A stretch of 59,149 nt of DNA from a virus: the IMG/VR virus record IMGVR_UViG_3300024518_001350, positions 1 to 59,149 of that record. One strand, 5' to 3'. The notes below the pieces were generated by a model. The model did no database searches. It was not told the origin of the DNA and was given only the letters and a program-made list of their open reading frames with translations. Position numbers and translations under genes: made by a program. Below are positions 40,601-59,149 of this stretch, piece by piece. Positions within the stretch are counted from its first letter, which is position 1, and each line of letters opens with the position of its first letter.

Positions 40601-43600
40601 TCCATTCTCTTCAATCCAGCAGTTGATGGATGACTTTAAAGAAAGAAGTCTTACTACCACACCTCGGACTCAGAATATAAATGGGAGTACGGCTTACTTC
40701 ATTGGAAACGAGCTTGGGTTCACTGAGCCGATTGCTATATTCATGAAGCCTTCCGGGTTCAGGGATATGTCTATAGTTGAGATTGTATCCAACGCCGAGT
40801 ATGGGTCTAGGAATATAGAGTATGCGGGTGAAGGGTCACCTCCACTCCATGGTGCTGAAGCGACAGTAAGAACAGCAATGATTATGCTTGATCCAAGCCT
40901 AGGCAGCAAGGTTGCACAATCAACAGAGAAAGGAAGAGCAAGCCTAGGGTATAACTCAACAGTGCATAGTACTGAAGAGCAAGCGATAATGGCTAAGGTT
41001 CATGCACCTGTAAAGCATAGTATATTCAACCAACTAAAAATGTTCTTTGCCGATGACAGCTTCCGAGAGCAGAAGCTATTGGATACAAGGGAAGGATTGG
41101 TGTTCAAGTATGATCCCATAGAGAAGACTTCTGATGAGGTGAGAAGAAGAGCCTTGGATAGGGATCCTGAAAACCCTGTGCTACTGTCCGACACTGGACT
41201 TGGAGATGTTATTCTGGCACAGAAGGGTAATGGTTTACTAGCTGCTTCGTTGAAGTATGGTGTACCAATCTTTGATAAGGTAGCTGGGCTAACTCAAGCT
41301 AAGCTAGGTAGCTTCAAGCTACAGAACATTGAAGGACTACCACCCATATATGAAAAAGAATTTGGTGGCATGATAGACATACTTGGGCCTGCCATAAGTG
41401 ACTATGGTATCAGGGAAGACCTAATGAGGAAGGTCCATGTAGTTCTGTTAGCAACCAGAGGAAGGAGATTTATAAAGGAGAAAAAATTAATACCAGAGGG
41501 TATTAATCCAGAATACCTAGCACTAGCTGATAAGTTCTTGAAGACAAACCCAGAGATTCAAGCCATAGTACACAACTATCAGAGATGGAATGAAGCAATG
41601 ATAGACCATGGGGTTGCTACTGAGTACCTATCCGAGGAGCAGGGTGCAGCATTAAAGAAAAATATGGATTACGTTTCGTTCAAGAGACAATCAATGAACA
41701 TGGAAGACCAACTCTTAGATCATGATTCACTCTTCAATCAGGAACTTCAAGAAGGACTTAAGGGTGACCTCCAAGATCTTAAGCAACCACCCAGGTACAA
41801 GGGTAGCAGGTATGGATTGATAGAAGGCTTCCTAGAGGGAGCTAGCCTTAATGCGTTTACTATGATCCAGAGGGGTCTGAATAATCGGGCAAGTAAGTCT
41901 GTAATAAATGATCAGAAGATTATATTCCCCGATCAGGTTAGGCGTGCAGGTGAGGGCAAAGATGCTAATGGAGTAGATAACAATAAGCTTAGGGATATGA
42001 ATGGTGAGCTACCCACCATGATAGTGAGGGAGAATGGTGAAGAGGTAACATATGTAATAGCTGATGCTCGTGTGGCGAATGCAATGAAGGGATCAATAGG
42101 TATTAGGGATCCATTTGTGGATGGAGTAATGGCTAGGTTCTCTGCTGTGCTGAGGAAGGGTGTCACCATAGCACCAGAGTTTATATACAGAAACACACTA
42201 AAAGATCCAATGGTAAATGCTCTGATCGGTGGTCAATTCAAGGGCTGGAAGGCTCTTACATTGCCATTCGTTGTAGCGGGCAATGCAGTGTCTCACCTTG
42301 CAGGTGGGTCAAGCTACTACACTAAGGAGTTCCTTGAGCTTGAGTCCGTTGGTGGTGCTAGTGGTATCTATAATGATGCACTGTATGCACCAACCCCCGA
42401 GGGATTCAACAACATGCTGGGAGATCAGAAGAGGGGCAAGATAGGATTGAATCCAAAGAAGACATTCTTCGCTATATGGGATGGGCTTGGTGTTGCAAGT
42501 ACCAAATCTGAAACTGCAACTAGGGAGAGAGTTTATGATTCAGTATTGAATGAAACTGGTAGCCTTAAAGAAGCTTTGATACAAGGCATTGAAGTTATGA
42601 ACTATGACAGGAGAGGTGGTAACCAGAACTTTGCTAGGTACGCTTCGATGGCAACCTTCTTGAGTGCCAGTATAAACGGTTGGGACATAGCAGACAGGAC
42701 ATTAAGAAAGGGTACATATAGTATTGATGCCAATCAGAACAACAACGAAGCAAGGAAGAGAGCATGGTACAGGGTAGGTGCGATGGCTGCATTATCTGTC
42801 GGCTATGCCCTAGCATGGGCAGGTGGAGATGATGATGAATGGAGATCATTCGGAGATGAGGTTAGATATAGTAACTGGTTAGTTCCATTCTTTGGTAGTG
42901 CTATCGCAGTCGGGTTGCCATTTGAGTTAGGTGTACTAACTAAGGTGATACCAGAGCTAGCGGTAAGGACGATGCTAAAGGGTATGGATCCATCTGAAGC
43001 AGCCATGATACTGCTAGGTCAAGTTTGGGGTGCAGCTCCAAACATAGCTATGCCTACAGCCTTAGCTGGCATGATCAACATAGGCGGGAGTCCTTGGTCA
43101 GAATCAAGAGGGTGGAATCCCTTCCTTAAGTCTCCTATAATCCCTGACCATATGCCAGTTGGTCCAATGGCTTACGATAATAAGACTAGCCTAACTGCAA
43201 GAGGCTTAGCTACTATGCTTCCGGGTGGTAGTAGTCCTAAGAAATGGGAACATCTTGTCTCTATGTATGGTGGCACCATGGCTGTCAATATCCTAGCTAT
43301 AGCTGATACACTCGTTGATCAACTGATGCCTGGGTTTGCAGCTACCCCCTACACTGAAGCATTTGAAAATATACCTACAGTGAGAGCTATACTCAAACAC
43401 CCGGATGGTGCATCACATATAAATAAATTCCATAAATGGTTCAAGCAGGTAGAGGATCTTACTCATGAGGTTAGAGTTCTGAGTATAGAGAATCCAGCGA
43501 AGGGAAGAAAATTAAAAGAGGCAAACCGTACTACATTGAAGTATGCTCCGATGGCTCAGTCAGTTAAGTCTAGACTTCAAAAGCTTGATAGAAAAGCAAG

Positions 43601-43754
43601 GATAATCAGAGCAAATAAGCATATGGGTAGTAGCGAAAGAACAAAAGCGTTAGAGAGAATAAGGCTAATGAAATTAACTGAGGTTCAGAGGTTTAACAAA
43701 AAGATAGAGGGTAAAGATTACAAGCACATGTCTTATAGTGGTAGAACGTACTGA
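31683..43754 (+). CDS. Giant polyvalent protein (4023 aa): two HExxH sites, GHKL ATPase, ART-like domain, LPD38-like C-terminus
   Basis: Domains in order: an N-terminal glycine-zipper membrane-like stretch (residues ~150-195); winged-helix-like segments (~510-690); a zinc-peptidase-like HEMMH at 1026-1030; a GHKL (HSP90/MutL-type) ATPase with E1356, N1360, D1363, then DSGTG at 1451-1455 and GGWGDA at 1483-1488; a second HExxH, HEALH at 1979-1983; an ADP-ribosyltransferase-like domain with H2440, Y2463 and E2574 in the polyvalent-ART layout; a coiled, charged stretch (~2600-2670); a GNAT-like segment (~2730); and a C-terminal region with hydrophobic helices resembling large polyvalent protein-associated domain 38. 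EKGKASR-like motifs separate the later modules. Such proteins are thought to be packed or injected and act on host targets at entry. The GTG start overlaps the previous stop. Domain calls are by motif; ATPase and ART are the firmest. Confidence 0.8.
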   Translation: MGTYKYFFPTGGYYPVEDDVSMEDAGNQLQELYPAGFYQNFSPMQREEDIRQREADNQGFFMDVVGEPILTGLERHLTTLPLAGRLAHDFATATKEQMNDPRHLQQYRDDFAAMSQEKQKHTFRQASELIARGEFTDSAKELGMSGLENFFGMLAHWAPTIASSKLGAAAGTAIAPGPGTLAGGMIGYSAMSADQFLAENLMESIQSNPDITLNDIADRFPHLLLATAGQVATEAVAFKVLGLFSNKLLGSIPKNAPIKRELVNSTQRKIASITGPRSTVPRNIAQGAVGEGGAEVLQHIMTKWQANVPIDYAEEDHMWELMENFWGGLSGGAGIGAMTSLIDGRNPQTSKRDKDLQDEKIKSWAHARARTAQLETQRLEAENRDKQAQAAENSQLEAELINEQIDVDRNEGRSVVSEEDIHAAALERNINSRDGGFIDFVRRTFPSHEGQIDSLSDLSLQEKNILYQNLKRFQRQGATGTGESQPVSFRAHSDSDIEKVTDSIAKRFKRHKNKAKLFTVEDVKKILGDASDERAKSLIEELRVNGVVENEGVTETLERLTKKHREDSVDYDNDFEPDYTAQQLSDLSEEASNWNEGDNISPELGRLILDNSGYVLNDAQVDPNTRAILDIARETTTFPTWEEIQRRTKGSSQAETVLKSQYDEVVEKLKADGSLQTNADGELFLASRYEQGVVGRQYRGVERGKFVVRALDGSIISVHDTIEGAKQSAHEANEDKGGGGYDLTDDFGNTTRITGRKSKERALAFIRQHKNSKYKIYVDGVEAESNLSKTKAEKLSRWMRSTNGLTGQEGRRRITVGRDESSFQFRSTPDSYLNKLPDVISAGNTKENLFVVEETKLGEQGRYLGSKLIGLADTLADAESKANNFRDLRRKSFDSVGGKIVEEDADLADLRNDPIGHATRRVREESPHLSEPITPSESKIYKAEMTEYGKRLEKYFNRAKLGHYGIGLQFVHNMQDLASSLKNGEDGWFSTQTGMITLLDRLEYSRIDANSSDEEVYQVLLPILGHEMMHAYETLGLIKPSEKRRILKRMEKIKNANGQTLADEVRERYRHLEGPELESEMLAVALEVYIKERGWSLTDKQKASKKKDITGADASVMSRIGTWLRGLGSYVNSSEWTGRDEKLMSKFVPGEERDSLTVRSARSGFRPFDSMEGTIRPERYTDGEKIVWDGDVNSRGDKWLTIVEVKDIHNLADAKGVPWDNDEEFMQKTMRLTGKSNHLDELNPRQRRLVYLDLADMQDPYNITETQRTVIPKEEKPRASAADEEGVDNEPYTYEEEYPDEAYAYDDEYGMGSRPIEEARKHMKENANVSVNIERMYEQENVGIWDEKQQEIILRELIQNAWDAVKGAYRNGIIDEGSGVINVEIESPNDYTILEPEGKVQSKKTMDYDDLESLFDGMDGDVELVLSNMRKMGSIEENNTFTYSGSMEVQDSGTGMSPEDITYHFLNIKGSSKPSTEASETSGGWGDAKMRFLFNPSLIVVESTQNGLTTRIVSDSRTLIESSTDVNIVLPHSVEQAWNYGTSMGPTWSDGRFDSGTSVKVFLPVDMPVKHVNSKQRKDVKWTNHPRFMSFPLIGDVKVDLIVDGVRTDPKEDYDAPGNREIPGMGKDLDIGGKYEEPVRYNADWGYIDVYKGPFVTRQVEPGDNFSTAPVYVFSSGLYQFDTRGPQRSGDTEFSGRVDKAFRFDASHVIGRLLNREILLDVHSNVRPGEGDYPFPKSRDSLMEEAKELTTIIARDIVGERRDLDRKDFTVKMGDATYMNRTNDPVQQGFVHMDDEGNAIEPSDDTLNNDLPLLYNFSTIDNEDITNKQMEFIGGLGNIFRDFIVDIDEKDIQELGSHRKTMEYPMRKREKIGNWSTAIAIAPKSDWAGLNMFKTFSDSSLDPDSSDFKGFSGIMLIDPFKYNFTKYLEQYISKNQDIIDMNSHATTAQQLSLVSLLQKTNLETYATTWANAIYSTMAHEALHVNHRSHSPERFIIALEKFISEGVPLHNLQVHIDSLSELFTQNLNEYIELKEMYDGANAKSDIGILEGTELPKQKPILNQDDRGLNTTRDTRSAERTGGRQRTGESVPLGERGSRSNERRGVSRLRKGIVGEKGKASRNNTSAGGSSWRNPAHVGQPDLINNPISTKDGNRKIDIDKKGFHLPTYLRSVIESVVQHYALSRKDEYNNTYGKQRFTPEREQSLIGQYNNISIEPSRDDHPRFQQHDPKDGYTTNTEIFKEYVSKYIADVIASDLGIQTAGTDFVNDENLGAAIDEVIHEHHVNMIAMGIKDSRFRLDNGYGLGSTQAEWDAATSIEKELIIEEIIELQVESIADEEFGTGDKAIPITIDQVRDAVFKIQTGRKWRKGQDSDRPIRNSVIEKFRIRNDKDGGRLKVIEKSFVRFTGQGRYEEKGKASRGNQGVVVTPDDVSMLSELTLFHGGDSVLKSLRSGSEGGSLGSGIYLTPTREKAEGYGKNLYSVNVKIDNPLIISSSRDVTAKATQPLNWAGSNTAPRWLNPAEHLLIKLGVPSEKAHSIVEKEEEEYGYVRNRIRSLARRQGYDGILQFIDGELMEVVAFSKGQVSNVADAIGEEKGMANIPKRERERLERDRLEAIEQLPPDERRRVKERDRIAKANSLATKARRKEEAAAKKVVDDERELLERDIDTTMSRGRDLGNMPVQILTLKHTPTGTSIDIHKYPKASDTLPSIVGVDIPVRSEGLGSAAILMDYARDIYPDIRVELGTGDATVPNAKRVTLIRDLSTDQIRKLIEVNEMLKERSPNNTSNYESEEYIQVLANRGERGKASRGFDTTLPDQFRAKKLTFNKNTLDMMVKEAKSIAINKIKSRSYPDLKGTEKDRRIKDMVSRQQRYYNDIIRDDNIAMKVDVVSKLSNLYSSNQSATNHGVNSSDLYQFLKELSDAGVSSNRVFKIKNDMYDSMGMETRKIKINDLERNLLDDVSKIQFSQELLETKTPFSSIQQLMDDFKERSLTTTPRTQNINGSTAYFIGNELGFTEPIAIFMKPSGFRDMSIVEIVSNAEYGSRNIEYAGEGSPPLHGAEATVRTAMIMLDPSLGSKVAQSTEKGRASLGYNSTVHSTEEQAIMAKVHAPVKHSIFNQLKMFFADDSFREQKLLDTREGLVFKYDPIEKTSDEVRRRALDRDPENPVLLSDTGLGDVILAQKGNGLLAASLKYGVPIFDKVAGLTQAKLGSFKLQNIEGLPPIYEKEFGGMIDILGPAISDYGIREDLMRKVHVVLLATRGRRFIKEKKLIPEGINPEYLALADKFLKTNPEIQAIVHNYQRWNEAMIDHGVATEYLSEEQGAALKKNMDYVSFKRQSMNMEDQLLDHDSLFNQELQEGLKGDLQDLKQPPRYKGSRYGLIEGFLEGASLNAFTMIQRGLNNRASKSVINDQKIIFPDQVRRAGEGKDANGVDNNKLRDMNGELPTMIVRENGEEVTYVIADARVANAMKGSIGIRDPFVDGVMARFSAVLRKGVTIAPEFIYRNTLKDPMVNALIGGQFKGWKALTLPFVVAGNAVSHLAGGSSYYTKEFLELESVGGASGIYNDALYAPTPEGFNNMLGDQKRGKIGLNPKKTFFAIWDGLGVASTKSETATRERVYDSVLNETGSLKEALIQGIEVMNYDRRGGNQNFARYASMATFLSASINGWDIADRTLRKGTYSIDANQNNNEARKRAWYRVGAMAALSVGYALAWAGGDDDEWRSFGDEVRYSNWLVPFFGSAIAVGLPFELGVLTKVIPELAVRTMLKGMDPSEAAMILLGQVWGAAPNIAMPTALAGMINIGGSPWSESRGWNPFLKSPIIPDHMPVGPMAYDNKTSLTARGLATMLPGGSSPKKWEHLVSMYGGTMAVNILAIADTLVDQLMPGFAATPYTEAFENIPTVRAILKHPDGASHINKFHKWFKQVEDLTHEVRVLSIENPAKGRKLKEANRTTLKYAPMAQSVKSRLQKLDRKARIIRANKHMGSSERTKALERIRLMKLTEVQRFNKKIEGKDYKHMSYSGRTY

Positions 43755-43784: not shown

Positions 43785-44540
43785 TTGGGGAGAAAAAAGC
43801 ATCTCGTTATAGGGGACAGTCATTCAAAGCCAGGGATCAGTAATGCTAGGTACACATGGTTAGGAAGGATGATCGCAGCAGAGAAGCCTGATGTCATTAT
43901 AGACATAGGTGATTTCTATGACATGGAATCATTATGTGGGTGGGACAAGGGCAAGAGAGCATTCCAAGGAAGAGAATATAAAAAAGATATTGAACACGGG
44001 TTAGATGCACAGGACAGGATAGAGGCAGAGCTAAAGAAAGTTAAGGGGTACAAGCCTAAGAAGATTAGATGCTTAGGTAACCATGAGAATAGAATATCTA
44101 GAGTGGTCGAGGACCAAGCAGAGTTCTATGGAACCTTAACTCGTAGTCATTTCCAGAGTGAAGAGTATGGCTGGGAAGAGCATGACTATCTTGAGCCAGT
44201 CAAGGTTGATGGCATAGCATACTGCCACAGCTTTGCCTCTGGTATAATGGGACGACCAATCAGTGGTGAAAACCCAGCAGCATCACTACTTAATAAAAAG
44301 AAAATGAGTTGTATAATTGGTCACAACCATGTGCTAGACTTTGCAACAAGAAACGATGCAATGGGAAAGAAGATGAGTGCAGTTTCAGTTGGTTGTTTCT
44401 TTGAACATGATGAAGCTTATGCTGGTCCACAAGTAAATAGGATGTGGGATAGGGGCATAGTAATTCTTAATGATGTTCAGGCTGGTGAGTTTGACTTTGA
44501 GTGGTGGTCAATGAGAAGAATAAAGGGGAAATATTCATGA
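43785..44540 (+). CDS. Calcineurin-like metallophosphoesterase (251 aa)
   Basis: The two-metal phosphoesterase pattern is complete: D11-x-H13 (GDSHS), D43 (IDIGDFYD), N99-H100-E101 (CLGNHENR), and later CHS and GHNH. Such enzymes hydrolyse phosphomono- or diesters; the phage substrate is unknown (nucleotides, nucleic acid ends or protein). The start is TTG after AGGAG. The next gene starts within its stop (ATGA), so the two are coupled. Confidence 0.85.
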   Translation: MGRKKHLVIGDSHSKPGISNARYTWLGRMIAAEKPDVIIDIGDFYDMESLCGWDKGKRAFQGREYKKDIEHGLDAQDRIEAELKKVKGYKPKKIRCLGNHENRISRVVEDQAEFYGTLTRSHFQSEEYGWEEHDYLEPVKVDGIAYCHSFASGIMGRPISGENPAASLLNKKKMSCIIGHNHVLDFATRNDAMGKKMSAVSVGCFFEHDEAYAGPQVNRMWDRGIVILNDVQAGEFDFEWWSMRRIKGKYS

Positions 44541-45133
44541 GTATTTTAAGTGAACCAGAAACAAAACTAAACCTACCAGCTCCTGAGCTGACACACATAG
44601 TTGATATGGGTGTAGACATAACAAATAGAACAATCTACTTCGATGACTTTGAAGAAGAAAGTGGACAGTGGTTTCTACAGGTCATGAAGTATTTTGAAGG
44701 TCAAGATGTTGAGGATGTAGATCTGTTTTTAAACTCTCCAGGCGGGGATGTTATCAGTATGTTTGCGATCCATGATATAATGAGAAACTCTCCTATAAAT
44801 GTGAGAGTTACAGGGTATGGTCAGGTTTGCAGCGCAGGTGTACTGATACTGGCAGCAGGCAATGAGAGGAATGTAACTGAATCATGTAGCTGGATGTCAC
44901 ATGAACCCACTAGTGGTGGTGATCCAGACCTAGGCTTAAGAGCAGCTAAGTCTAGACGTAAGTGGGAAGACTGGAGCCATGTACACTGGTGCAGTTTAAT
45001 GGCTAGATACACACCTAACTCATCAGACTGGTGGGAAAAGCATACAGAAAAACAGGCAGAGTATTGGCTGTTGGGTGGGAAAGAAATTGTCGAAGCAGGA
45101 TTAGCGGACAGGGTAGTGAAAGGAAATGTATAA
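44537..45133 (+). CDS. ClpP-like serine protease (198 aa)
   Basis: ClpP/crotonase-type fold markers: LFLNSPGGDV (residues 63-72), nucleophile S99 in YGQVCSAGV, and H122 in WMSHEPTSG, matching the Ser and His of ClpP. The ATG at 44537 overlaps the previous stop and is preferred over an upstream in-frame ATG at 44501. Phage ClpP homologues often process prohead proteins, but this one sits at the far end of the operon, directly after the giant polyvalent protein and a phosphoesterase, so processing of an ejected or internal protein is possible. Confidence 0.85.
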   Translation: MSILSEPETKLNLPAPELTHIVDMGVDITNRTIYFDDFEEESGQWFLQVMKYFEGQDVEDVDLFLNSPGGDVISMFAIHDIMRNSPINVRVTGYGQVCSAGVLILAAGNERNVTESCSWMSHEPTSGGDPDLGLRAAKSRRKWEDWSHVHWCSLMARYTPNSSDWWEKHTEKQAEYWLLGGKEIVEAGLADRVVKGNV

Positions 45134-50501: not shown

Positions 50502-50577
50502 TGGTAGGGGTGGAGGGAGTCGAACCCTCACTGTAAGGATTTTAAGTCCTCTTTCTCTGCCATTGGAATACACCCCC
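50502..50577 (-). tRNA. tRNA-Leu(UAA)-like, short variable loop, CCA encoded
   Basis: The acceptor GGGGGTG pairs with CACCCCT, the discriminator is A73, and CCA is encoded. The anticodon stem GAGGA/TCCTT closes a loop CTTAAAA, giving anticodon UAA (Leu, TTA codons). The T arm GAGGG-TTCGACT-CCCTC is perfect. The D stem is imperfect (TTCC/GAGA). The variable loop has only 5 bases (ACAGT), whereas bacterial tRNA-Leu normally has a long variable arm. So it is a class I-shaped tRNA with a Leu anticodon. Confidence 0.85.
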
Positions 50578-50728: not shown

Positions 50729-50804
50729 TGGTACTCTGGGTAGGGGTCGAACCTACAACCTGTTGGTTAGAAGCCAACTGCTCTATCCATTGAGCTACCA
50801 GAGC
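50729..50804 (-). tRNA. tRNA-Arg(UCU), CCA encoded
   Basis: The acceptor GCTCTGG/CCAGAGT (G1-U72 wobble), D arm AGCTCAATGGATAGAGC, anticodon stem GTTGG/CCAAC with loop CTTCTAA (anticodon UCU, AGA codons), T arm GTAGG-TTCGACC-CCTAC, discriminator A73 and encoded CCA are all complete. Its 5' end directly abuts the stop of the deoxyribosyltransferase-like gene. Confidence 0.95.
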
Positions 50805-51718: not shown

Positions 51719-53512
51719 ATGATGGAGGATGGAAGTCTTTCAATCATAAGAGATTCTATTGTTCAATATGGAACTAGTAGATCTAACTGGAGGGACACTT
51801 GTCCTTATTGTTCCCATGAGAGGAAGAAGAGTAAAGAAAAAACATTATCAATAACTATCAAGGATAACATTGGGTTATTTTTTTGCCACCATTGTGAAGA
51901 GTCAGGAAGTATAGATTATATGTCAACATCAGGGATGCCAACAGTGCCATTAGAAACCCAATCAACTATACCAGATAGTATCAGTTACAGCATGAAGGTT
52001 GGTAAGAAACAGAGAGATTATTTAGACTCAAGGAAAATTAATGGAACCTCTGAAGGTAAACATATAGTTTCAGGTAAGAAATATTTCTTCGACAAAAATG
52101 GTGGTGGCTCCAGCCAAGAAGCTATTGGATTTAGATACGTTAACCTTGATGGTAGTGAGGCTGTCAAGTGGAGATGTTTAGACTTCAAAGGATTCACTCA
52201 AGATGGTGCAGCTAGATCTCTATGGGGGATAGAGAATTTTAAGTCTGGGAATATAATTATTACAGAAGGAGAGATTGATTGTCTATCCTTCAGGGAAGCA
52301 GGGTTCACTGAAGATAATGGATGGACTGTAGTATCAGTACCTAATGGGGCACCCAGTTCAGTATCAACCAATGATAACTCAAGAAAGTATTCATACCTAT
52401 GGGATGCTAAGGATGCACTAGCTAAAGCAGAAAAGATAATCATAGCGTCAGACAACGATAAGCCGGGTGACTCATTAGCTGAAGAGATAACCCGAAGGAT
52501 AGGTAGACATAAGTGTTGGAGATTAAAGTATCCAGAGGGTACTAAGGACGCCAACGAAGTACTAGTAAAGTATGGTAAAGATGTTGTTAAGGATATGCTG
52601 GACAGTGCTATACCCTGGCCGATACAGGGATTAAGATCAGTACTAGAGTACGAAGGACACGTACTTAAGTACCACAATGAAGGCCCAGTAATTGGTACAG
52701 GTACAGGAGTTAAGCCAGTAGATGAATTGTTTAACGCATGTCCCGGCTCATTCGTTGTTGTTACAGGTATACCGGGATCAGGTAAATCTACATGGTTAAG
52801 CTGGCTGCTCATTAAGCTTGGCTCAAGAGATGACCAGAAGTTTGCTGTATGGTCTGCCGAGATGCCACCTACCATGCTAGTATCAAATCTATGTGCCACG
52901 TACAAAGAGAAAGCCTTTAGAGGATCCAATGGTATGAGTCCTGAAGAGGTTAAAGAATCTATTGGATGGATAGACGATCACATTGTTATCATTGAGACTA
53001 ATGACACTGACATAGATACTATATGTGAGGGAGCAATAGCATCTATACTGAGGAAGGGTATCACTGGCTTAGTGGTTGACCCATATAACATGATCACTCG
53101 TAGTGGTGGACACAGTGAAGAGGCTAGCTTAACTAACATAAGATACATCCTAAAGAAATTAAAGTCATTGGCCCTTGAGTATAGTATCACAGTATATCTT
53201 ATAGCTCATCCAAGGAAAATGATACAAGAGGTTGGTAGAGCATGCGTTCCAACCGGTTATGATGTTAGTGGCAGTGCAGACTTTTATAATATTGCAGACA
53301 TTGGGATAACAATATCAAGAGTTGAAGATGGTCAATCTCTTATGACTAATTGGAAGAGTAGATTTCCGCACTTCGGGAAGACAGGTAGTAACATAATAGA
53401 TTTTGATCTGGCAACAGGATCATATAGTGACCCACTATCAGGGCATCAAGGTAGCTTAGGTTCTGGAAGTAGTTGGAGTGATGTTGAAGATAAGGTTGAT
53501 GAATATTTTTAG
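51719..53512 (+). CDS. Primase-helicase (T7 gp4 / Twinkle-like)
   Basis: A 597-residue protein. The N-terminal zinc finger has C28, C31, C56 and C59 (CPYC ... CHHC). The TOPRIM primase domain has IIITEGEIDCLSF (E183) and IIASDNDKPGD. The helicase has Walker A GIPGSGKST at 350-358, followed by VWSAEMP and LVVDPYNM, as in DnaB-type hexamers. It would unwind DNA and prime lagging strands. It is transcribed rightward from the GC-rich region, with a GGGGAAG ribosome site. With no DNA polymerase in view, it probably loads a host enzyme. Confidence 0.92.
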   Translation: MMEDGSLSIIRDSIVQYGTSRSNWRDTCPYCSHERKKSKEKTLSITIKDNIGLFFCHHCEESGSIDYMSTSGMPTVPLETQSTIPDSISYSMKVGKKQRDYLDSRKINGTSEGKHIVSGKKYFFDKNGGGSSQEAIGFRYVNLDGSEAVKWRCLDFKGFTQDGAARSLWGIENFKSGNIIITEGEIDCLSFREAGFTEDNGWTVVSVPNGAPSSVSTNDNSRKYSYLWDAKDALAKAEKIIIASDNDKPGDSLAEEITRRIGRHKCWRLKYPEGTKDANEVLVKYGKDVVKDMLDSAIPWPIQGLRSVLEYEGHVLKYHNEGPVIGTGTGVKPVDELFNACPGSFVVVTGIPGSGKSTWLSWLLIKLGSRDDQKFAVWSAEMPPTMLVSNLCATYKEKAFRGSNGMSPEEVKESIGWIDDHIVIIETNDTDIDTICEGAIASILRKGITGLVVDPYNMITRSGGHSEEASLTNIRYILKKLKSLALEYSITVYLIAHPRKMIQEVGRACVPTGYDVSGSADFYNIADIGITISRVEDGQSLMTNWKSRFPHFGKTGSNIIDFDLATGSYSDPLSGHQGSLGSGSSWSDVEDKVDEYF

Positions 53513-53685
53513 AGCTGCCATTTCTTATCACTCACTAGGTCTATAATAACTTTCTTAGGAACACTGAATTCCTTAGCCAACCTTTCTATACCTATACCTC
53601 CATCTCTATATCTCTTTAATATATATATGATCTCTTGTTTAGTTAGTGGTGGAATCACTAATGATTTCGGTAGGTTATCAGGCAT
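53509..53685 (-). CDS. Small helix-turn-helix protein (58 aa)
   Basis: A 58-codon frame with a homeodomain-like HTH: LTKQEIIYILKRYRDGG, then IGIERLAKEFSVPKKVIIDL and a final WQL. The layout matches the HTH protein encoded at 58224 (LAxxFxVSxxxIxxI...W), so both may be copies of a DNA-binding module typical of phage homing or regulatory proteins. The TAA overlaps the helicase TAG by 3 bases. Confidence 0.7.
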   Translation of the reverse strand: MPDNLPKSLVIPPLTKQEIIYILKRYRDGGIGIERLAKEFSVPKKVIIDLVSDKKWQL

Positions 53686-53744
53686 GAATAGATAATTATT
53701 CCTATTGCTTTATAATAAAAAATGTAGAACAAAATATTAAATAT

Positions 53745-53783
53745 AAAAGGGGGACCACCCAGTGTACAGGTGGCCCCCCTTTT
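53745..53783. terminator. Bidirectional terminator
   Basis: AAAAGGGGG-A-CCACC (53745-53759) pairs with GGTGG-C-CCCCCTTTT (53769-53783), one mismatch, around a 9-nt loop, with A/T-rich tracts on both sides. Leftward it ends the MoxR/VWA operon; rightward it could end the primase-helicase transcript. Confidence 0.85.
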
Positions 53784-53788
53784 ATTAT

Positions 53789-55129
53789 TTACGGCTCTAT
53801 TTCAACGACCCTACCAAACGGTGGGACATTGGTATATGTAGGATAAGCCACGGCGGGGTAGGAAGAGGCCCACATAACAGGATACTTAGGCTTGTCACCA
53901 TAATCTTTACTACCTAGATCGGTAAAGATTATCACCATGTCAGGTGACTTCTTCTTCTTGTTAAAATATTCAAACACTGGCCTAAACCTAGTACCACCCC
54001 ACCCACTAAACTTCTTAGGCATCTTCTCACCCTTAAGAACATTAACAATATTCTTTTTGTTTACTGTCGTGGTGAAGGGAACTATCTCTATGTTCTTAAT
54101 ATTATTTCCCTTCCTTATATCCTCCATCGCTGCAATCAGTAGATTCAAACTGTCAACATCCATGCTGGAACTAACATCCAAACCTATACCCAAATTAATT
54201 TCTTGTTTCTTTTTTGGTGAAGGATAGTATATATTATTCCTTAGTCTCTGCCTACAAAATTTCAATGGATTAGTACCGTCGCGCTTACCCTTCTTACCTA
54301 CAAACCTTGAGATATCTACCTTCCAATTTATCTTAGGTGTAGTGATCTTAGTTATATGTCTATCAGCTTCACCTGCACCCTCATATCCGCAAGCTACTGA
54401 CACTGCTCTAGTGTTATTAAGAAACTCTTTGTGAGCCTCCATCTTTTCCTTCATCTCTTCAGGCTTTAGAGCCTCACCTTTAGGCCCTGAGGCTTCAATG
54501 AATTGCCCCTGTTGAGCATTCTCCCAGTCTTTAGGGTCTTGCTCATTCGGTGGAGAATCTCCCGGTGTAGGCTTATCGCTCTTACCTTGTCCCCCATCTC
54601 CATCTCCATCTTCAGGAGGTTTTTCTTTATCCTTATTGAGTATATCATATACTGCTTCAAAGCTCATCCTTGAAAGCTTCTCATCCCATAGCCATCCCCA
54701 TTCCACTATCTGGGGATACCTATCAAGCATGATACCATTAACAGAATAATCTGCTGCTACGTTTGCAAGCTTATGCTTTCTTTTTCCTACTCTGAATGGG
54801 TGAAGCAATCCAACGTGCCAAGTTTCATGTTCAACTGTAGCCTGTGTCTCAATGAATATAGATTCCTTCAGATGTTGAGGAGCAAAGACTATAACTTCAC
54901 CATCAGTAGCAGCAGTTTTAATCTCCTTCCCTTTGTATACATCAGAAATGATATAGTCCATTGCCATTGATACGGTACCAGCGAATGGTTCCTGTTGTAT
55001 GATATTAGATCTAGCCTTTCTTATCACATCAAAGTATTCTCTATAAAGATATATCTCATTCAAAGGAAAGTCCTTTGAATAGACACACTCAAGTGTCTTA
55101 CTGCTCATTCTAGCAGAAATATCTAGCAT
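53789..55129 (-). CDS. Metallopeptidase-like plus VWA protein (DUF2201-like)
   Basis: A 446-residue protein. The N-terminal half has H101-E-T-W-H105 (HExxH) followed by GLLHPFRVG and NVAADYSVNGIML, as in DUF2201_N. A disordered acidic/proline linker spans about 165-235. The C-terminal VWA-like domain has a full MIDAS: D318-x-S320-x-S322, T380 in GWGGT, D404 in FTDLG. VWA proteins work with MoxR AAA+ partners, which is encoded two genes upstream. Target unknown; metal insertion, complex remodelling or proteolysis are possible. ATG preceded by AGGAG. Confidence 0.85.
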   Translation of the reverse strand: MLDISARMSSKTLECVYSKDFPLNEIYLYREYFDVIRKARSNIIQQEPFAGTVSMAMDYIISDVYKGKEIKTAATDGEVIVFAPQHLKESIFIETQATVEHETWHVGLLHPFRVGKRKHKLANVAADYSVNGIMLDRYPQIVEWGWLWDEKLSRMSFEAVYDILNKDKEKPPEDGDGDGGQGKSDKPTPGDSPPNEQDPKDWENAQQGQFIEASGPKGEALKPEEMKEKMEAHKEFLNNTRAVSVACGYEGAGEADRHITKITTPKINWKVDISRFVGKKGKRDGTNPLKFCRQRLRNNIYYPSPKKKQEINLGIGLDVSSSMDVDSLNLLIAAMEDIRKGNNIKNIEIVPFTTTVNKKNIVNVLKGEKMPKKFSGWGGTRFRPVFEYFNKKKKSPDMVIIFTDLGSKDYGDKPKYPVMWASSYPAVAYPTYTNVPPFGRVVEIEP

Positions 55130-55141
55130 TTATATTTTCTC

Positions 55142-56023
55142 CTATGATCTCATCATGCCTGACAAACCTGAAAGTATATGCTTAGCATCTGTTGCTATAA
55201 GCTCTCGCTTATCTTCATCCTCTCGCAATTCTGAGGGATGATACCTAGTGAGTCGAGTCACCATCTCATATCTCATAGCCTCAATCTTAGGGTTATTATT
55301 TATATTCATGTAACCAATAACCTTTGAAAGATCTTCGACGTTACTGATAAGGCTATCCCTGAACATGTTCCTTACTTTACCATCCTCCTCAATGGTATAT
55401 GACTCAAGCCTCTCAGCCACCCTACCTACAACGGTAGCAACCTTCTCATTTATTTCATCTACAATTATATCAAGATTTCTTTGAAGCTTCTGCTCCATCC
55501 TCTCTTTGAACCTACGCTCTACCTCTAGGGATCCAAAGGTTACAGAGGCACTTGGGTCTGGCGCTGTAGCTGCACCCACTATCATATAGAAATTAGACTT
55601 AAGCTCATCCCTATCAGGGTAATCCCCTCTATCATATAGAGTTCCAAGGTTAGCCTCAGCATACTTGAGTACCTCCTCATAATCACGTACAAAAGTCACC
55701 ACCTTACTACCTATGGCGGCCTCAGCCTCCATGACTAGAGGCTCTATCTCATTGAGCCACATCTCTTTGGTAGCAATGCGTTCACCTGAACCCTTACCCC
55801 AAGGGGAAGACTTATCATATATCAAACCCCTATACTTACTGATGGTTGCCACTGCATCCTTATATGATGGATGTCTTGCCCACTTCTCTTTAGTGACATT
55901 GATACACTTGATTTCAGCATTAGTTCTATCTGCAAGATCCATCTTCTCTTGCTTAATGCTCATGTTATTGCCGGGTACTTTAGATTCAACTGTAAAGACT
56001 ACATAACTATCTGGATTAAACAT
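55142..56023 (-). CDS. DUF3150-like middle protein of MoxR-VWA cassette
   Basis: A 293-residue, mostly helical, charged protein (SSPWGKGSGERIATKEMWLNEI, in part; VERRFKERMEQKLQRNLD). I associate it with DUF3150 because that family often lies between MoxR AAA+ and VWA genes, but the sequence has no unmistakable motif. It may be the adaptor linking the ATPase to the VWA protein or the client protein of both. It is 12 bases from the VWA gene and 20 from the MoxR gene, so the three are surely one operon. Confidence 0.6.
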   Translation of the reverse strand: MFNPDSYVVFTVESKVPGNNMSIKQEKMDLADRTNAEIKCINVTKEKWARHPSYKDAVATISKYRGLIYDKSSPWGKGSGERIATKEMWLNEIEPLVMEAEAAIGSKVVTFVRDYEEVLKYAEANLGTLYDRGDYPDRDELKSNFYMIVGAATAPDPSASVTFGSLEVERRFKERMEQKLQRNLDIIVDEINEKVATVVGRVAERLESYTIEEDGKVRNMFRDSLISNVEDLSKVIGYMNINNNPKIEAMRYEMVTRLTRYHPSELREDEDKRELIATDAKHILSGLSGMMRS

Positions 56024-56043
56024 TCGTTCTCCTATTATTTTGT

Positions 56044-57177
56044 TTAGTATTTGTTGGGTGTTCCGGTGTATTCAGTGATAAGCTCTGTGAAACTTGCACT
56101 GTCACGCACTTGATCAGATACCTTAGCTATAGCGTGTACTGCCATACCAATAAACTCTGAAGGCATCCTCTTAAGATACTTACATATATTCACTACCTCA
56201 TAATCTTCTACCGTTTTCCCTTCCCTGTAAAGATAACGAAGCTCTGAAGTTATATTAGCAATGACTCCAAACTGCTCACCCATACCATCGGGAAGCTTAG
56301 CACCATCAGGTGCAGAGGTTATAGATGCAAAGCTTGGTAGCTTATCAGCCAAACTGACAAAGGCTTTATACTTCTCATACTCAGCCGTACCTACTGAACC
56401 ACTACCCATATTATCAGCAACTTTGTTGTTCTTAATTAGTCTCATGTAACTGGTTGAAGGTTCTTCCATCATCAGTATCTTATGTCCAGCATTAAGCTTA
56501 TCCCACCCACGGCATGTAGGCTGAGCATCATCCATACTGCTAGCATCAAACTTGTATAGAGATTCTTTCTGCCATTCGATATAGCTAACGATGTATGGGT
56601 TGATCTCGTTAGGTATAGCGAAGTTGTTTATCCATTCCTTACTATCAGGATAGTGATTGATAGTAAGTAGTCTACCCTCAAGCATTGCCCTACTAAGATC
56701 TATAGAATTACAACCATCCTCTGATCCATTGCCTGCTGCCACGAACATGATGTTATCACCAATCTTACACCCCTCTATCACCCTGGATTGAAAGGCACTC
56801 TGTACAGCAGCATGTACATCTGGTTCAGCATTAGTTATTTCATCAAACAATAGAAGCTTAGGTTTCTTTGAATCACCTCCTGTGATTCTCTTTAGAGGGT
56901 AATGTTCCAGCATCTTAGTACCATGATTAGGAACAAACAATCCTTGAAGTTCTACAGCAGAGTATCTTGACAATATAATCTCATCATAATCCCAATCAAA
57001 CATCATAGCAATCTGTTTAATCATATCTGTTTTACCAGTAGCCGGTGGACCCTTAACGAATGGAACTATAGGTGCCATGCCATACAGTTGAGTCTTAAGG
57101 CACGCTAGTACTGTCTGTTGAGTAGTGTTAAAATCGTTGATGCTCTTACCTTCAGGAAATACTATTTTATTATTCAT
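56044..57177 (-). CDS. MoxR-type AAA+ ATPase
   Basis: A 377-residue protein from the preferred ATG at 57177, which has an AGAGGA ribosome site; an earlier ATG at 57219 gives 14 more residues. Walker A is GPPATGKT at 43-50, Walker B KLLLFDEITNA, and the MoxR-typical SRYSAVELQGLF and FVAAGNGSEDGCNS segments are present. MoxR proteins remodel or activate partners together with VWA proteins. Sometimes annotated as CobS in phages. It heads the three-gene cassette. Confidence 0.88.
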   Translation of the reverse strand: MNNKIVFPEGKSINDFNTTQQTVLACLKTQLYGMAPIVPFVKGPPATGKTDMIKQIAMMFDWDYDEIILSRYSAVELQGLFVPNHGTKMLEHYPLKRITGGDSKKPKLLLFDEITNAEPDVHAAVQSAFQSRVIEGCKIGDNIMFVAAGNGSEDGCNSIDLSRAMLEGRLLTINHYPDSKEWINNFAIPNEINPYIVSYIEWQKESLYKFDASSMDDAQPTCRGWDKLNAGHKILMMEEPSTSYMRLIKNNKVADNMGSGSVGTAEYEKYKAFVSLADKLPSFASITSAPDGAKLPDGMGEQFGVIANITSELRYLYREGKTVEDYEVVNICKYLKRMPSEFIGMAVHAIAKVSDQVRDSASFTELITEYTGTPNKY

Positions 57178-57217
57178 TTGTTCCTCTTGTTTTATTAGTT
57201 TTAATATAAGAACAATC

Positions 57218-57249
57218 AAGGGGGGAGAATATCTCTACCCTCCCCCCTT
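57218..57249 (-). terminator. Terminator-like hairpin before the MoxR gene
   Basis: AAGGGGGGAG (57218-57227) pairs perfectly with CTCCCCCCTT (57240-57249). On the leftward strand it follows the stop of the gene at 57260 and is followed by TTGATTGTTC, a broken T-run. It probably attenuates rather than stops transcription into the MoxR cassette. Confidence 0.6.
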
Positions 57250-57259
57250 ATCTTACTGC

Positions 57260-57535
57260 TTAGAACCGCTCATGGTTGTCGAGAGTGTCATTAAAGGTTG
57301 CGTAGACACAATTGCCACGAGTGACAACAGTAAAGTCAGCGCTCCACTTCTTCCTGATATTAGAAGCTGAAGTCAAGGCACTGGAAGCAGAGGAATACTG
57401 CTTAATGCGTGCAGACTTACCGGGTGAACTTCTCAGTGCATCCTGTGTCTGTGTATGCCAATGGTTCCTTGAGTCAGTCCTATCGGGGATCTCTTCCCAT
57501 ACGAATGTATTATCAGCCTTGTTTCGAGTTGTCAT
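57260..57535 (-). CDS. Hypothetical protein (91 aa)
   Basis: A soluble, basic, S/T-rich protein (SSPGKSARIKQYSSASSAL). The ATG follows AAAGGAAAC. No domain recognised. Situated at the early end of the leftward operon, so perhaps a small host-takeover protein. Confidence 0.6.
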   Translation of the reverse strand: MTTRNKADNTFVWEEIPDRTDSRNHWHTQTQDALRSSPGKSARIKQYSSASSALTSASNIRKKWSADFTVVTRGNCVYATFNDTLDNHERF

Positions 57536-57547
57536 TTTGTTTCCTTT

Positions 57548-57889
57548 TTAGTTTATGAATGAACTTTCACTTAGAGTAGAGTTTATTTCTTCTATTGTTA
57601 TTACTTCTGTTTGCTTTATATCATCTATCATTTCATAAAGCAAGTTGACCAACGCTCTTACTGATTCTTTATCTTCTCCTTCCTTGTCATATATTATAGT
57701 AGTAGAGTCTATGCTTAAATCAGGTGCATCATTGACTGCCATGATAAGGTTATCATCATATTCCTTACCTATTACCTTATAGTGTTCAACACCCATTTCT
57801 TGTTGATCACTATTGTTTTCATCTAGATAAAATACTTGTGCAACATAATACAAGTCACCATCCTTGACTACCTTATACTTCCATATCAT
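57548..57889 (-). CDS. Hypothetical acidic protein (113 aa)
   Basis: An acidic mixed alpha-beta protein (IWKYKVVKDGDLYYVAQVF; EVITIEEINSTLSE). It starts shortly after a tRNA gene and precedes the 91-residue gene by 12 bases. No family recognised. Confidence 0.6.
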   Translation of the reverse strand: MIWKYKVVKDGDLYYVAQVFYLDENNSDQQEMGVEHYKVIGKEYDDNLIMAVNDAPDLSIDSTTIIYDKEGEDKESVRALVNLLYEMIDDIKQTEVITIEEINSTLSESSFIN

Positions 57890-57914
57890 ACAACATACTC
57901 CTTAACTACTAAAG

Positions 57915-57990
57915 TGGTGGACCCTCTCAGATTTGAACTGAGAACCATCCAGTTATGAGCCGGGTGCTCTAACCATTGAGCTAAGGGTCC
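57915..57990 (-). tRNA. tRNA with CAU anticodon, probably tRNA-Ile2, CCA encoded
   Basis: The acceptor GGACCCT/AGGGTCC is perfect, the discriminator is A73, and CCA is encoded. D arm AGCTCAATGGTTAGAGC, anticodon stem with loop CTCATAA (anticodon CAU), T arm TCTCA-GTTCAAA-TCTGA. C4-G69 and C5-G68, and general likeness to the bacterial AUA-reading tRNA-Ile2 (recalled from E. coli), point to Ile2, which needs lysidine modification by host TilS, rather than elongator Met. It is not an initiator tRNA since pair 1-72 is G-C. ATA codons are very common in this genome. Confidence 0.9.
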
Positions 57991-58014
57991 GTAAGTCATT
58001 GTTTTATATAACCT

Positions 58015-58236
58015 TTAAGGTTTCTGTGATCCGCTGGGGTGGTCGCTCGACGAGCCTAGCACACTCGCCGGACGAGTGCAAACGGCGGGTACCAGTTGGA
58101 ATTGTGACCATGTAACCATACAGTTACTACATACTAGCTGTTCATCAAACTTATGTTTATGTTTATTAGTATGGCAATCACATTTGTTTACAAACTTAAT
58201 TTTACCGGGTGTACTATGTCTGCTTATCTCTTCCAT
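58015..58236 (-). CDS. Small zinc-knuckle protein (73 aa) with GC-rich tail
   Basis: Cysteines CDC and CSNC with a histidine-rich spacer (HTNKHKHKF) suggest zinc binding, followed by VTWSQFQLV. The last ~20 residues are encoded by the GC-rich island at 58033-58094 and differ in composition (SSSDHPSGSQKP), as if the island had been added to the gene end. The ATG overlaps the upstream stop by 13 bases and has an AAGGAACC ribosome site. Confidence 0.55.
   Translation of the reverse strand: MEEISRHSTPGKIKFVNKCDCHTNKHKHKFDEQLVCSNCMVTWSQFQLVPAVCTRPASVLGSSSDHPSGSQKP
58033..58094. repeat. GC-rich island B, related to island A
   Basis: GCTGGGGT (58033-58040), GCTCG (58045-58049) and CGGCGGGTACCA (58083-58094) appear in the same order as in the island at 51556-51608, with a different hairpin-containing stretch between. 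Here the central hairpins are GCTCG-A-CGAGC and CACTCG/CGAGTG (58062-58078). This looks like a duplicated structured element with covarying or replaced stems. Confidence 0.5.
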
Positions 58237-58442
58237 GCTTGGTTCCTTATGATCCTTGAGATTGCCTGTTGACTTACGTTAAAATGTTTAGCTAGGTATG
58301 CCTGAGTTACACCTCCCTTATTATATCTAGCAATTATAACCTTGACCTCTGCCTCAGTAAGTTTACTCTTACCATTACCTTCACCCCTTAGGTTAGGCTG
58401 TGGCTTTACGTCATGGCTTAGTCTGTAAATAGATTTCTTCAT
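58224..58442 (-). CDS. Helix-turn-helix protein (72 aa)
   Basis: The ATG at 58442 follows AGGAGA; a longer frame would run over the neighbouring gene. After a basic N-terminus comes a homeodomain/resolvase-like HTH: LTEAEVKVIIARYNKGG, then QAYLAKHFNVSQQAISRII and a final W. It resembles the 58-residue protein encoded at 53509. Probably a DNA-binding early regulator, or the DNA-binding half of a homing-type module. Confidence 0.7.
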   Translation of the reverse strand: MKKSIYRLSHDVKPQPNLRGEGNGKSKLTEAEVKVIIARYNKGGVTQAYLAKHFNVSQQAISRIIRNQAWKR

Positions 58443-58443
58443 G

Positions 58444-58620
58444 CTATCTCCTATGCTTTGAAGTTTTATTAGTGTAGGTTTCTTTATATAACTTGCCAAC
58501 CTTTCTTGCAAAGTTATAATCATAACAGATCGCAACAATAAACCACGTTCCGCTGGTCCCATTGCATTCCACAATGTATCCATTGAAGTCATCTATTTCT
58601 TTTTTGATTCTGGTTTTCAT
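58444..58620 (-). CDS. Hypothetical protein (58 aa)
   Basis: A small mixed protein (KEIDDFNGYIVECN; TSGTWFIVAICYDYNFARKV, in part). The ATG at 58620 just after the upstream stop is preferred; a longer frame from 58677 would overlap it by 44 bases. Ribosome site is weak, so translation may be coupled. No domain recognised. Confidence 0.5.
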   Translation of the reverse strand: MKTRIKKEIDDFNGYIVECNGTSGTWFIVAICYDYNFARKVGKLYKETYTNKTSKHRR

Positions 58621-58633
58621 AATATTACTTACA

Positions 58634-58993
58634 TTATGCTTTGAAATGTTCTTCATGTATAGTTTCGTATCCATCATGATCAGTTATATAAGATACCATT
58701 AGTATCCTTGCTGGTATTGTGATAATTTTCAGGTCAGCATGGAGTCCAGATGCTTTCTTTTCACCATAACTTTCAATGCATTCAATAAGAAACCTATGAC
58801 TCCTCATCATAACTGAACTGCAATCAGCAAAATCATCTACTGCACCAAAATGATTATAGTCCCAGTACCATCTAGCATCTGGATCACTGGTATTGGAGTT
58901 AGTCTTACAATGCATATAGTCCATGAAATTATTACTGAGGGCATAGCCTCCGTATCCCTTATTCAAAACTATCTTACATTTTCTCTCAGTCAT
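58634..58993 (-). CDS. Hypothetical protein, first leftward gene (119 aa)
   Basis: A soluble alpha-beta protein with aromatic residues (DARWYWDYNHFGAVDDFADC; in part). AGGAGAAACGAA precedes its ATG at 58993. It is the first gene after the right control region and likely an early protein. No family recognised. Confidence 0.6.
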   Translation of the reverse strand: MTERKCKIVLNKGYGGYALSNNFMDYMHCKTNSNTSDPDARWYWDYNHFGAVDDFADCSSVMMRSHRFLIECIESYGEKKASGLHADLKIITIPARILMVSYITDHDGYETIHEEHFKA

Positions 58994-59018
58994 TTCGTTT
59001 CTCCTACTCTGTAGATTA

Positions 59019-59072
59019 GTACCCTATATGACGCTATACTGGTACATATTAACTACCCCTGGGGTACTCATT
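59019..59072. promoter_or_regulatory. Divergent control region with operator-like palindrome
   Basis: Between the leftward gene at 58993 and a rightward frame at 59073 lies TACCCC-T-GGGGTA (59054-59066, 6-bp arms) and GTACC...GGTAC (near 59019-59043). Such palindromes suit a dimeric repressor. No clear sigma-70 promoter was resolved. Confidence 0.4.
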
Positions 59073-59149
59073 TTGGCAGCTAAAAATGGTGAAGATTTTA
59101 CATTAAAGTCTCCTTCAGATCTCATTAAAATTGATGTTAAAGATTTTAA
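59073..59149 (+). CDS. Possible partial gene running off the right end
   Basis: A TTG start after GGGGTA opens a frame of 25 codons (LAAKNGEDFTLKSPSD, beginning) to the window end without a stop. If the molecule were circular in this order, it would continue only seven codons into position 19. So it is either a cut-off longer gene or a very short peptide. Confidence 0.35.
   Translation, partial: MAAKNGEDFTLKSPSDLIKIDVKDF

Follow-up and report, generated by a model that had tools for sequence, protein, structure and literature searches.

For MoxR-VWA pairs, the common mode of action described in the relevant part of PMC7159879 is that the VWA protein captures a peptide, which is followed by ATP-driven remodelling. 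The pairing of such an ATPase with a peptidase-VWA protein is widespread in phages, being found as gp24/gp25 in N4 and also in jumbo phages. The jumbo-phage pair, a MoxR with a metallopeptidase-vWA protein, has already been described in passages of PMC7824862, while a table in PMC2784036 gives the function of the MoxR-VWA genes of N4-like phages as unknown.

In the window, which is the whole 59,149-nucleotide stretch of viral DNA analysed here, three adjacent genes (53789-57177) encode, in this order, a MoxR ATPase, a DUF3150-like protein, and a metallopeptidase-VWA protein (Table 1). An earlier note on this DNA had read them as an AAA+ MoxR ATPase, a helical middle protein, and a protein with both HExxH and a MIDAS VWA domain, and the translations, Pfam matches, and motif conservation all agree with this.

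Organization of the cassette

Table 1. Features of the three-gene cassette, with positions in the window
Feature	Position	Strand	Basis
P0001, MoxR-type AAA+ ATPase, 377 aa, N4 gp24 homologue	56044..57177	(-)	Pfam AAA_5, phrog_1297, ATG common to L004
P0002, DUF3150-like protein, 293 aa, largely helical	55142..56023	(-)	hhalign, AlphaFold2, BFVD match
P0003, DUF2201 protein, 446 aa, predicted N-terminal metallopeptidase and C-terminal VWA, N4 gp25 homologue	53789..55129	(-)	Pfam, phrog_1314
Walker A, GPPATGKT, residues 43-50 of P0001	57028..57051	(-)	translation
HExxH, H101-E102-x-x-H105, residues 101-105 of P0003	54815..54829	(-)	conservation
MIDAS DxSxS, D318-x-S320-x-S322 of P0003	54164..54178	(-)	conservation
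Terminator-like hairpin behind the VWA gene	53743..53785	(-)	19 pairs and T-rich tail
Hairpin preceding the MoxR gene	57217..57250	(-)	15 pairs

There are 20 nt between the MoxR and middle genes and 12 nt between the middle and VWA genes. The MoxR gene had been given a TTG start at 57219, which is disfavoured and is replaced here by the ATG at 57177, preceded by AGAGGAAC, as the most likely start. The MoxR frame listed for the related locus L004 opens at the equivalent ATG, and the frames of L008 and L009 (378 aa) also start with ATG. All three cassette genes are under purifying selection, with their active-site motifs intact; dN/dS between the window and L004 is 0.059, 0.047, and 0.080 for the three, and 0.085 for the neighbouring primase-helicase.

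The cassette had also been credited with its own attenuator and terminator. Behind the VWA gene there is indeed a terminator-like hairpin, with an RNA fold of -32.3 kcal/mol (z -6.0). The hairpin that precedes the MoxR gene has counterparts of altered sequence at the equivalent position in L004, L008, and L009 (z -3.0 to -6.1), and there is no clear T-tail in the L008 and L009 copies, so that an RNA-stability or processing element is as likely here as an attenuator. The promoter-like sites number 14, against 14.0 expected by chance.

The cassette is on the strand opposite to the structural genes and is adjoined by replication and recombination genes, a gene position which, taken by itself, is compatible with an early gene set. 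It fits poorly with a virion-assembly chaperone and processing peptidase, in which MoxR-VWA would remodel structural proteins and the HExxH domain would process them, although this is the role proposed in the passages of PMC7824862 that deal with the MoxR and metallopeptidase-vWA partners of group 2.2 jumbo phages, and that cite a MoxR-VWA system of Acidianus two-tailed virus. In N4, gp24/gp25 have the RNA polymerase gene gp16 on one side and the genes of the helicase and the polymerase on the other, and one plasmid triplet adjoins conjugation genes, which argues against a virion-specific client. Elsewhere in the window, at 44501-45133, there is a gene resembling a head-maturation protease, and virion processing can therefore do without the cassette peptidase. 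A virion-assembly role for the cassette is quite improbable.

The MoxR ATPase and the metallopeptidase-VWA protein

P0001 matches Pfam AAA_5 with 30.4 bits (cut-off 22, E 4.5e-7), phrog_1297, which is the N4 gp24 family, at 8.8e-53, and midasin AAA at 2.6e-15 in a PDB search. Across 123 non-redundant MoxR proteins, K49 is kept in 115 (the others being 7 gaps and 1 Met), D112, N150, and R223 in every one, and R169 in 122, while the position of E113 has Glu in 99 and Asp in 24. The roles of the single residues, as parts of Walker A and Walker B, sensor Asn, and Arg finger, are presumably those usual for such positions. By its Pfam score and conserved residues P0001 is an AAA_5-type ATPase and a predicted member of the MoxR clade, which PMC7159879 defines by an insert in helix 2; the nearby VWA partner gene that goes with this clade is P0003, the second gene downstream. 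As regards a chelatase of CobS/CobT type, the match to the CobS-type family is at only 0.0018 (phrog_249, porphyrin biosynthesis).

P0003 passes the Pfam cut-offs for both DUF2201_N (74.6 bits, cut-off 23.2, E 1.3e-20) and DUF2201 (63.6 bits, cut-off 26.4, E 2.4e-17), membership of DUF2201 being defined as PF13203 and PF09967, each above its own cut-off. It matches phrog_1314, the N4 gp25 family, at 5.6e-65. The label of the latter, "HNH endonuclease", was rejected for P0003 because Pfam gives a DUF2201 metallopeptidase-VWA protein without an HNH domain. The VWA fold was recovered with Z 13.4 (131 aligned, rmsd 2.5), and T380 and D404 are the remaining MIDAS residues. D318, S320, S322, and D404 are each present in all 133 non-redundant VWA proteins, across which N-x-A-x-D is nearly invariant.

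The HExxH histidines H101 and H105 are each found in 131 of these 133 proteins and E102 in 128, which makes P0003 a predicted metallopeptidase. Against a peptidase module, the zinc site of P0003 may be structural, and the cassette would then be a non-proteolytic helper for remodelling or metal insertion, like RavA-ViaA, NorQ-NorD, and the chelatase subunits. Such helpers make up most of the characterised MoxR-VWA pairs listed in the part of PMC7159879 that covers them, and a NorQD chain, as well as the 60 kDa subunit of Mg-chelatase, came up among the weak matches of the P0003 VWA domain. However, the glutamate is conserved above the need of a purely structural site, and a helper of this kind is an unlikely identity for the cassette.

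The middle protein as a relative of DUF3150

The earlier note had guessed that the middle protein is DUF3150-like. Pfam does not bear this out, as P0002 has no match to PF11348 (DUF3150) at E<=1 and no credible match to any Pfam family, and a PF11348 search of the whole window gave none at E<=10. Other comparisons do bear it out: hhalign of P0002 with a Pfam-positive DUF3150 protein gives a probability of 97.2 (E 3.4e-11), the AlphaFold2 model (pLDDT 88.6) matches a phage "DUF3150 domain-containing protein" in BFVD with TM 0.85, BLASTP matches the DUF3150 protein of phage MinM2 at 1.7e-9, and in the DUF3150 tree a 100/100 branch puts P0002 with the MoxR/VWA-linked proteins. As judged by profile, fold, and tree, P0002 is a DUF3150 relative at superfamily level, though below the Pfam gathering score. 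The earlier reading hung on the middle protein being related to those beside other MoxR-VWA pairs, and this relationship was found.

PF11348 is matched by 3 of the 13 members of an alignment of P0002 relatives, and the Manganitrophus plasmid is the only record above the PF11348 cut-off among 9 searched. P0002 found nothing at E<=1 in 50,697 phage records; the MinM2-type DUF3150 relatives surfaced only with the proteins of loci L052 and L093 as queries (4 and 3 records). The P0002 model had no match to PDB folds at E<=0.001, and VIA-align 2 gave helical-bundle matches only, up to Z 9.6, a range common for helical models. Neither function nor fold novelty follows from these fold searches. No publication on DUF3150 was found in an open-access literature search.

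Distribution and co-inheritance

From 115 viral loci and 111 genome loci, the best 80 of each were picked by their VWA gene, and the counts therefore cover VWA-bearing loci rather than all DUF3150 genes. In 50 of the 80 bacterial loci the order is MoxR-DUF3150-VWA, as in the window; 21 have the pair, 2 have VWA and DUF3150, and 7 have VWA alone. Of the 80 viral loci, 61 have the pair but no gene recognisable as DUF3150, which would mean that DUF3150 is not always needed, or that it is replaced. In Limnoglobus (L153, L154, L158) MoxR and VWA are separated by another frame, of ~300 aa, which is unmatched by the DUF3150 profile. Phage triplets, for which the earlier note had suggested a search, do exist, the isolated cyanophage MinM2 having the identical order.

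The bacterial, plasmid, and phage relatives of the three genes travel as one unit. Their pairwise distances correlate across 31 hand-picked triplets (r 0.90-0.95), and for each pair of genes 0 of 2000 permutations gave a correlation as high. DUF3150 is also found beside a second type of AAA ATPase with DUF1257, which fits a role as an AAA partner.

Bacterial relatives that have only the pair adjoin genes for a reverse transcriptase, a DNA methyltransferase, and DUF499/DUF1156 proteins, listed by PADLOC as defence proteins or candidates for them, and this suggests that the family works in conflict settings. Such neighbours, and the carriage of the cassette by phages and plasmids, are what would be expected of a counter-defence or host-takeover device against a host immune or transcription complex, along the lines of the earlier note, which had the cassette perhaps inactivating or remodelling some complex of the host. 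However, the PADLOC models give no convincing match to the three proteins (best 0.0089), and the acidobacterial triplets adjoin Sipho_Gp157 and RNase H genes, with no defence marker noticed around them. There is little likelihood that the cassette is a device of this type.

Phylogeny and phage affiliation

In the DUF3150 tree (38 hand-picked proteins) the MoxR/VWA-linked proteins are split from those beside the other AAA ATPase and DUF1257. In the MoxR+VWA tree (67 hand-picked loci, with MinM2 left out) the window clade joins neither the phage-pair group nor the bacterial one. Its branch is very long in both trees, with 2.49 changes per column in the MoxR+VWA tree and 3.98 in the DUF3150 tree, and the function of the cassette may therefore have shifted. 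By choice, 20 locus ids were dropped from the table of locus labels as repeats or near-repeats, most of which are second copies of included contigs; L005, L029, L032, L065, L074, L091, and L097 are separate records, dropped as redundant without a computed cut-off.

A Schitoviridae origin of the whole phage was rejected, there being no RNA polymerase or N4-type match among 20 proteins tested. The window terminase is closest to those of 023Pt_psg01 (52%), HTVC027P (51%), and DSL-LC04 (53%), and the primase-helicase is closest to those of MinM2-type cyanophages (33%). The 4023-aa gene of the window has no PHROG match.

Proposed mechanism

The cassette has about an even chance of being a mobile module of three components, an AAA+ remodelling and metallopeptidase machine with DUF3150 as a putative adaptor. 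The MoxR protein would form an ATP-driven hexamer, and the VWA domain, via its MIDAS metal, would grip an acidic or extended peptide of the client. The DUF3150 protein could recruit the client or couple the ring to it; ATP turnover would remodel the client, and cleavage, whether of the client or of a regulatory segment, might fall to the fused HExxH domain. In this phage the module probably acts at the replication or host-takeover stage and not in virion building, as opposed to the virion assembly favoured by the authors of PMC7824862 in their passages on the jumbo-phage pair.

More tentatively, and at somewhat less than even likelihood, MoxR-DUF3150-metallopeptidase/VWA may be a mobile protease system of three parts, powered by ATP and so far undescribed, which phages, conjugative plasmids, and bacterial genomes have in common, with DUF3150 as a general adaptor of two AAA+ machines that phages carry, MoxR/VWA and the separate AAA ATPase with DUF1257. 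DUF3150 becomes a candidate AAA+ adaptor family, and the presence of the three-protein set in a named phage, MinM2, means that mutations can be made separately in the ATPase, the adaptor, and the peptidase.

Comparison with known systems

The Synechococcus phage MinM2 (OQ594354) has genes annotated as MoxR family ATPase, DUF3150 domain-containing, and VWA-like, in the order of the window, with a convergent primase gene next after the VWA gene. BLASTP E-values against the window are 4.5e-18 for MoxR, 1.7e-9 for DUF3150, and 1.9e-16 for VWA. The MinM2 proteins are, however, only 22-25% identical to those of the window, and 1 small ORF lies between MoxR and DUF3150 and 3 between DUF3150 and VWA. 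The Planktothrix phages Pag-Yong1 and Pra-JY27 have DUF3150 match scores equal to that of MinM2; no literature on these cyanophages was among the matches listed.

In N4, a member of another phage family (Schitoviridae), gp24 and gp25 are side-by-side homologues of the window ATPase and metallopeptidase-VWA protein, but no DUF3150 protein is encoded between them or on either side. The jumbo-phage pair of PMC7824862 has the same AAA+ partner and domain fusion as the window, while the passages on it contain no DUF3150 and propose the virion-assembly role. Plasmid triplets, such as those of Cupriavidus necator pBB2, Burkholderia vietnamiensis pMSMB608, and Rhodovastum RHOApb, have MoxR, DUF3150-like, and VWA genes in the same order, and differ in being plasmid-borne and in a middle protein with ~20% identity to that of the window.

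The MoxR-vWA ternary conflict systems of PMC7159879 likewise combine MoxR and VWA with a third protein. Their third protein, VMAP, FtsH, or a beta-propeller, is of another family than that of the window, and DUF3150 is mentioned 0 times in that account. That the cassette belongs to these published systems is not supported, since P0002 matches no Pfam family of the VMAP, FtsH, or beta-propeller kind and the bpMoxR Pfam match is under threshold (17.7 bits, cut-off 27). What is new in comparison with the known pair is the third partner, which is co-inherited and common to plasmids.

The cassette and its reading frames

The three adjacent leftward genes described in the earlier note are present on the minus strand, separated by 20 and 12 nt. 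The start of the MoxR gene should probably be taken as the ATG at 57177, since this is the start listed in the related locus L004. The MoxR product, P0001, exceeds the Pfam cut-off for AAA_5 and the VWA protein, P0003, those for both DUF2201 domains; the middle protein, P0002, has no credible match in Pfam. By PHROGs, the family of P0001 is phrog_1297 (ATPase) and that of P0003 is phrog_1314. All three genes are under purifying selection, similar to that on the primase-helicase gene.

A terminator and an attenuator had been proposed for the cassette. The downstream hairpin is indeed a strong terminator candidate. The upstream hairpin of the window recurs, its sequence altered, in L004, L008 and L009. 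Its U-rich tail is not clearly kept, so that it may be an attenuator or, just as probably, an element of RNA stability or processing.

Positions of the cassette features and of other features of the window
Feature	Position	Strand	Remark
P0001	56044-57177	minus	MoxR-type AAA+ ATPase, 377 aa
P0002	55142-56023	minus	middle helical protein, 293 aa
P0003	53789-55129	minus	metallopeptidase-VWA protein, 446 aa
Upstream hairpin	57217-57250		before the MoxR gene
Downstream hairpin	53743-53785		behind the VWA gene
Three tRNA genes (Leu, Arg, Met)	50502-50577, 50729-50804, 57915-57990	minus	close to the cassette
4023-aa protein	31683-43754		end of the structural genes; no PHROG match

Relation of the middle protein to DUF3150

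No relative of P0002 was found at E<=1 in 50,697 phage records. Among 72,556 plasmid records, 31 matched at E<=10 (best 7e-17), several of them annotated DUF3150. Five plasmids were inspected, and in three of these MoxR and VWA genes flank the relative in the window's order. On the Simplicispira plasmid the MoxR gene is several genes upstream, while the Manganitrophus plasmid has a different AAA ATPase with DUF1257 and DUF2997 beside the relative and no VWA within the stretch inspected. The Manganitrophus protein itself exceeds the Pfam DUF3150 cut-off, and the window-clade profile matches it with probability 97.2 (E 3.4e-11, 208 columns). The AlphaFold2 model of P0002 (35 sequences, mean pLDDT 88.6, pTM 0.73) resembles a phage protein named DUF3150 domain-containing (TM 0.85, E 5e-17). 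The DUF3150-like reading of P0002 is therefore borne out, including its relation, found on plasmids, to proteins beside other MoxR-VWA pairs. Since only 3 of 13 aligned relatives match PF11348 directly, the name holds at superfamily level.

Synechococcus phage MinM2 and two Planktothrix phages of equal length were reached with DUF3150 proteins from other viral contigs as queries. MinM2 is annotated with a MoxR family ATPase, a small ORF, a DUF3150 domain-containing protein, three small ORFs and a VWA-like protein, followed further on by a convergent primase gene. P0001, P0002 and P0003 match their MinM2 counterparts at E 4.5e-18, 1.7e-9 and 1.9e-16, and the closest relatives of the window's primase-helicase are those of MinM2 and the Planktothrix phages. 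In three phages whose terminases are among the closest to the window's, no gene within the first 50 kb is annotated as MoxR, DUF3150 or VWA; the wider group therefore does not carry the cassette throughout.

The contig L010 is 99.96% identical to window 51795-59144, runs about 3.5 kb past the right end and from there on aligns to window 222-5 at 89%. The genome may therefore have a circular or permuted form, with a few kilobases possibly missing from the window.

Distribution of triplets and pairs

The neighbourhood search that the earlier note had proposed does recover MoxR-DUF3150-VWA triplets in viruses: the best 80 of 115 viral loci comprise 9 triplets, 61 pairs lacking DUF3150 and 10 VWA genes alone. 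Five triplets have the window's order, one of these (L020) coming from a contig that belongs to the same species as the window (99.96% identity over 7,350 bases, L010); three are DUF3150-MoxR-VWA and one MoxR-VWA-DUF3150. The best 80 of 111 bacterial loci, from a genome scan with a plasmid VWA profile, gave with iterated profiles 50 triplets in the window's order, 21 MoxR-VWA pairs without DUF3150, 2 VWA with DUF3150 and 7 VWA alone, several of the last nine being on short contigs. The 50 belong to Pseudomonadota (29), Acidobacteriota (18), Actinomycetota (1) and unassigned records (2). Acidobacterial triplets (L123-L140), which in many cases have Sipho_Gp157 and RNase H genes after them, appear to reside in phage-like or mobile elements. 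In Limnoglobus roseus, the place of DUF3150 is taken in three MoxR-VWA loci (L153, L154, L158) by a frame of some 300 aa that looks unrelated to it.

In 151 genomes of one class (E<=1e-5), DUF3150 matched in 10 and VWA in 14, about half of the latter weakly. Among the five places with the strongest DUF3150 matches (E <1e-100), four directly adjoin a VWA gene and the fifth is in a genome without a VWA match; the weaker places mostly do not adjoin VWA genes, and three inspected belong to a branch with an AAA ATPase and DUF1257. Both genes are thus sparse, yet often joined.

A tree of 38 DUF3150 proteins, which carries a warning from the tree tool that long branches meet in it, is divided by a 100/100 branch. 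On one side are the proteins linked to MoxR and VWA (the window clade, other viral triplets, MinM2 and 24 bacterial); on the other are those associated with DUF1257 and an AAA ATPase some 500 aa long (L099, L183-L185), together with that of Tunturiibacter phage Tunturi_3, where AAA ATPase and DUF1257 genes lie upstream of DUF3150. This phage copy of the set spans 3177-7831 of L188, its DUF3150 gene being annotated HNH endonuclease. DUF3150 would seem to be a recurrent AAA+ partner. Triplet gene distances correlate strongly (r 0.948, 0.901, 0.915; 0/2000 permutations each), as would be expected of a unit travelling together, with a contribution from the carriers' common ancestry.

Seven bacterial MoxR-VWA pairs without DUF3150 (L160, L164, L167, L169, L170, L176, L177) share a neighbouring gene family, the tested members of which are reverse transcriptases. 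Some also have a DNA methyltransferase, and L176 additionally DUF499, DUF3780 and DUF1156 methyltransferase genes. These loci look like a candidate defence island.

Proposed function and known systems

The HExxH and complete MIDAS noted in P0003 are near-invariant across 133 non-redundant VWA proteins, as are N123, A125, D127 and N131. The VWA domain of its model (pLDDT 82.6) is canonical (best Z 13.4, 131 residues aligned, rmsd 2.5), in a comparison that barely probed the peptidase half. The phrog_1314 family, although named HNH endonuclease, consists of DUF2201 metallopeptidase-VWA proteins. The same name is on this gene in many phage annotations, such as NC_ entries, and on N4 gp25.

Section 8 of PMC7159879 gives as the common mode of MoxR-VWA pairs that a peptide is captured by the VWA protein and the bound protein remodelled by the ATPase. 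Given that the cassette adds to this pair a metallopeptidase with intact motifs and a helical protein inherited along with it, we infer an ATP-powered remodelling peptidase. The families, linkage, conservation and selection of its genes are observed. In the proposal, P0001 would act as a hexamer in complex with its partners, the VWA domain would capture a client peptide and the ATPase remodel the bound client, which the metallopeptidase domain would cleave, with DUF3150 as adaptor; the cassette would act in the replication or host-takeover stage. Virion assembly, proposed in PMC7824862 where the same MoxR and metallopeptidase-vWA pair is described in jumbo phages, is disfavoured by the plasmid copies of the cassette and its placement beside replication genes. 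A role against the host is possible.

The pair itself is a known phage pair, P0003 matching in 107 and P0001 in 461 of the 50,697 phage records by tblastn. In N4, gp24 and gp25 adjoin each other; they are tabulated in PMC2784036 as ATPase and vWFA, function unknown. The triplet is already visible in the public annotation of MinM2, while no paper describing DUF3150 or the triplet was found in an open-access library.
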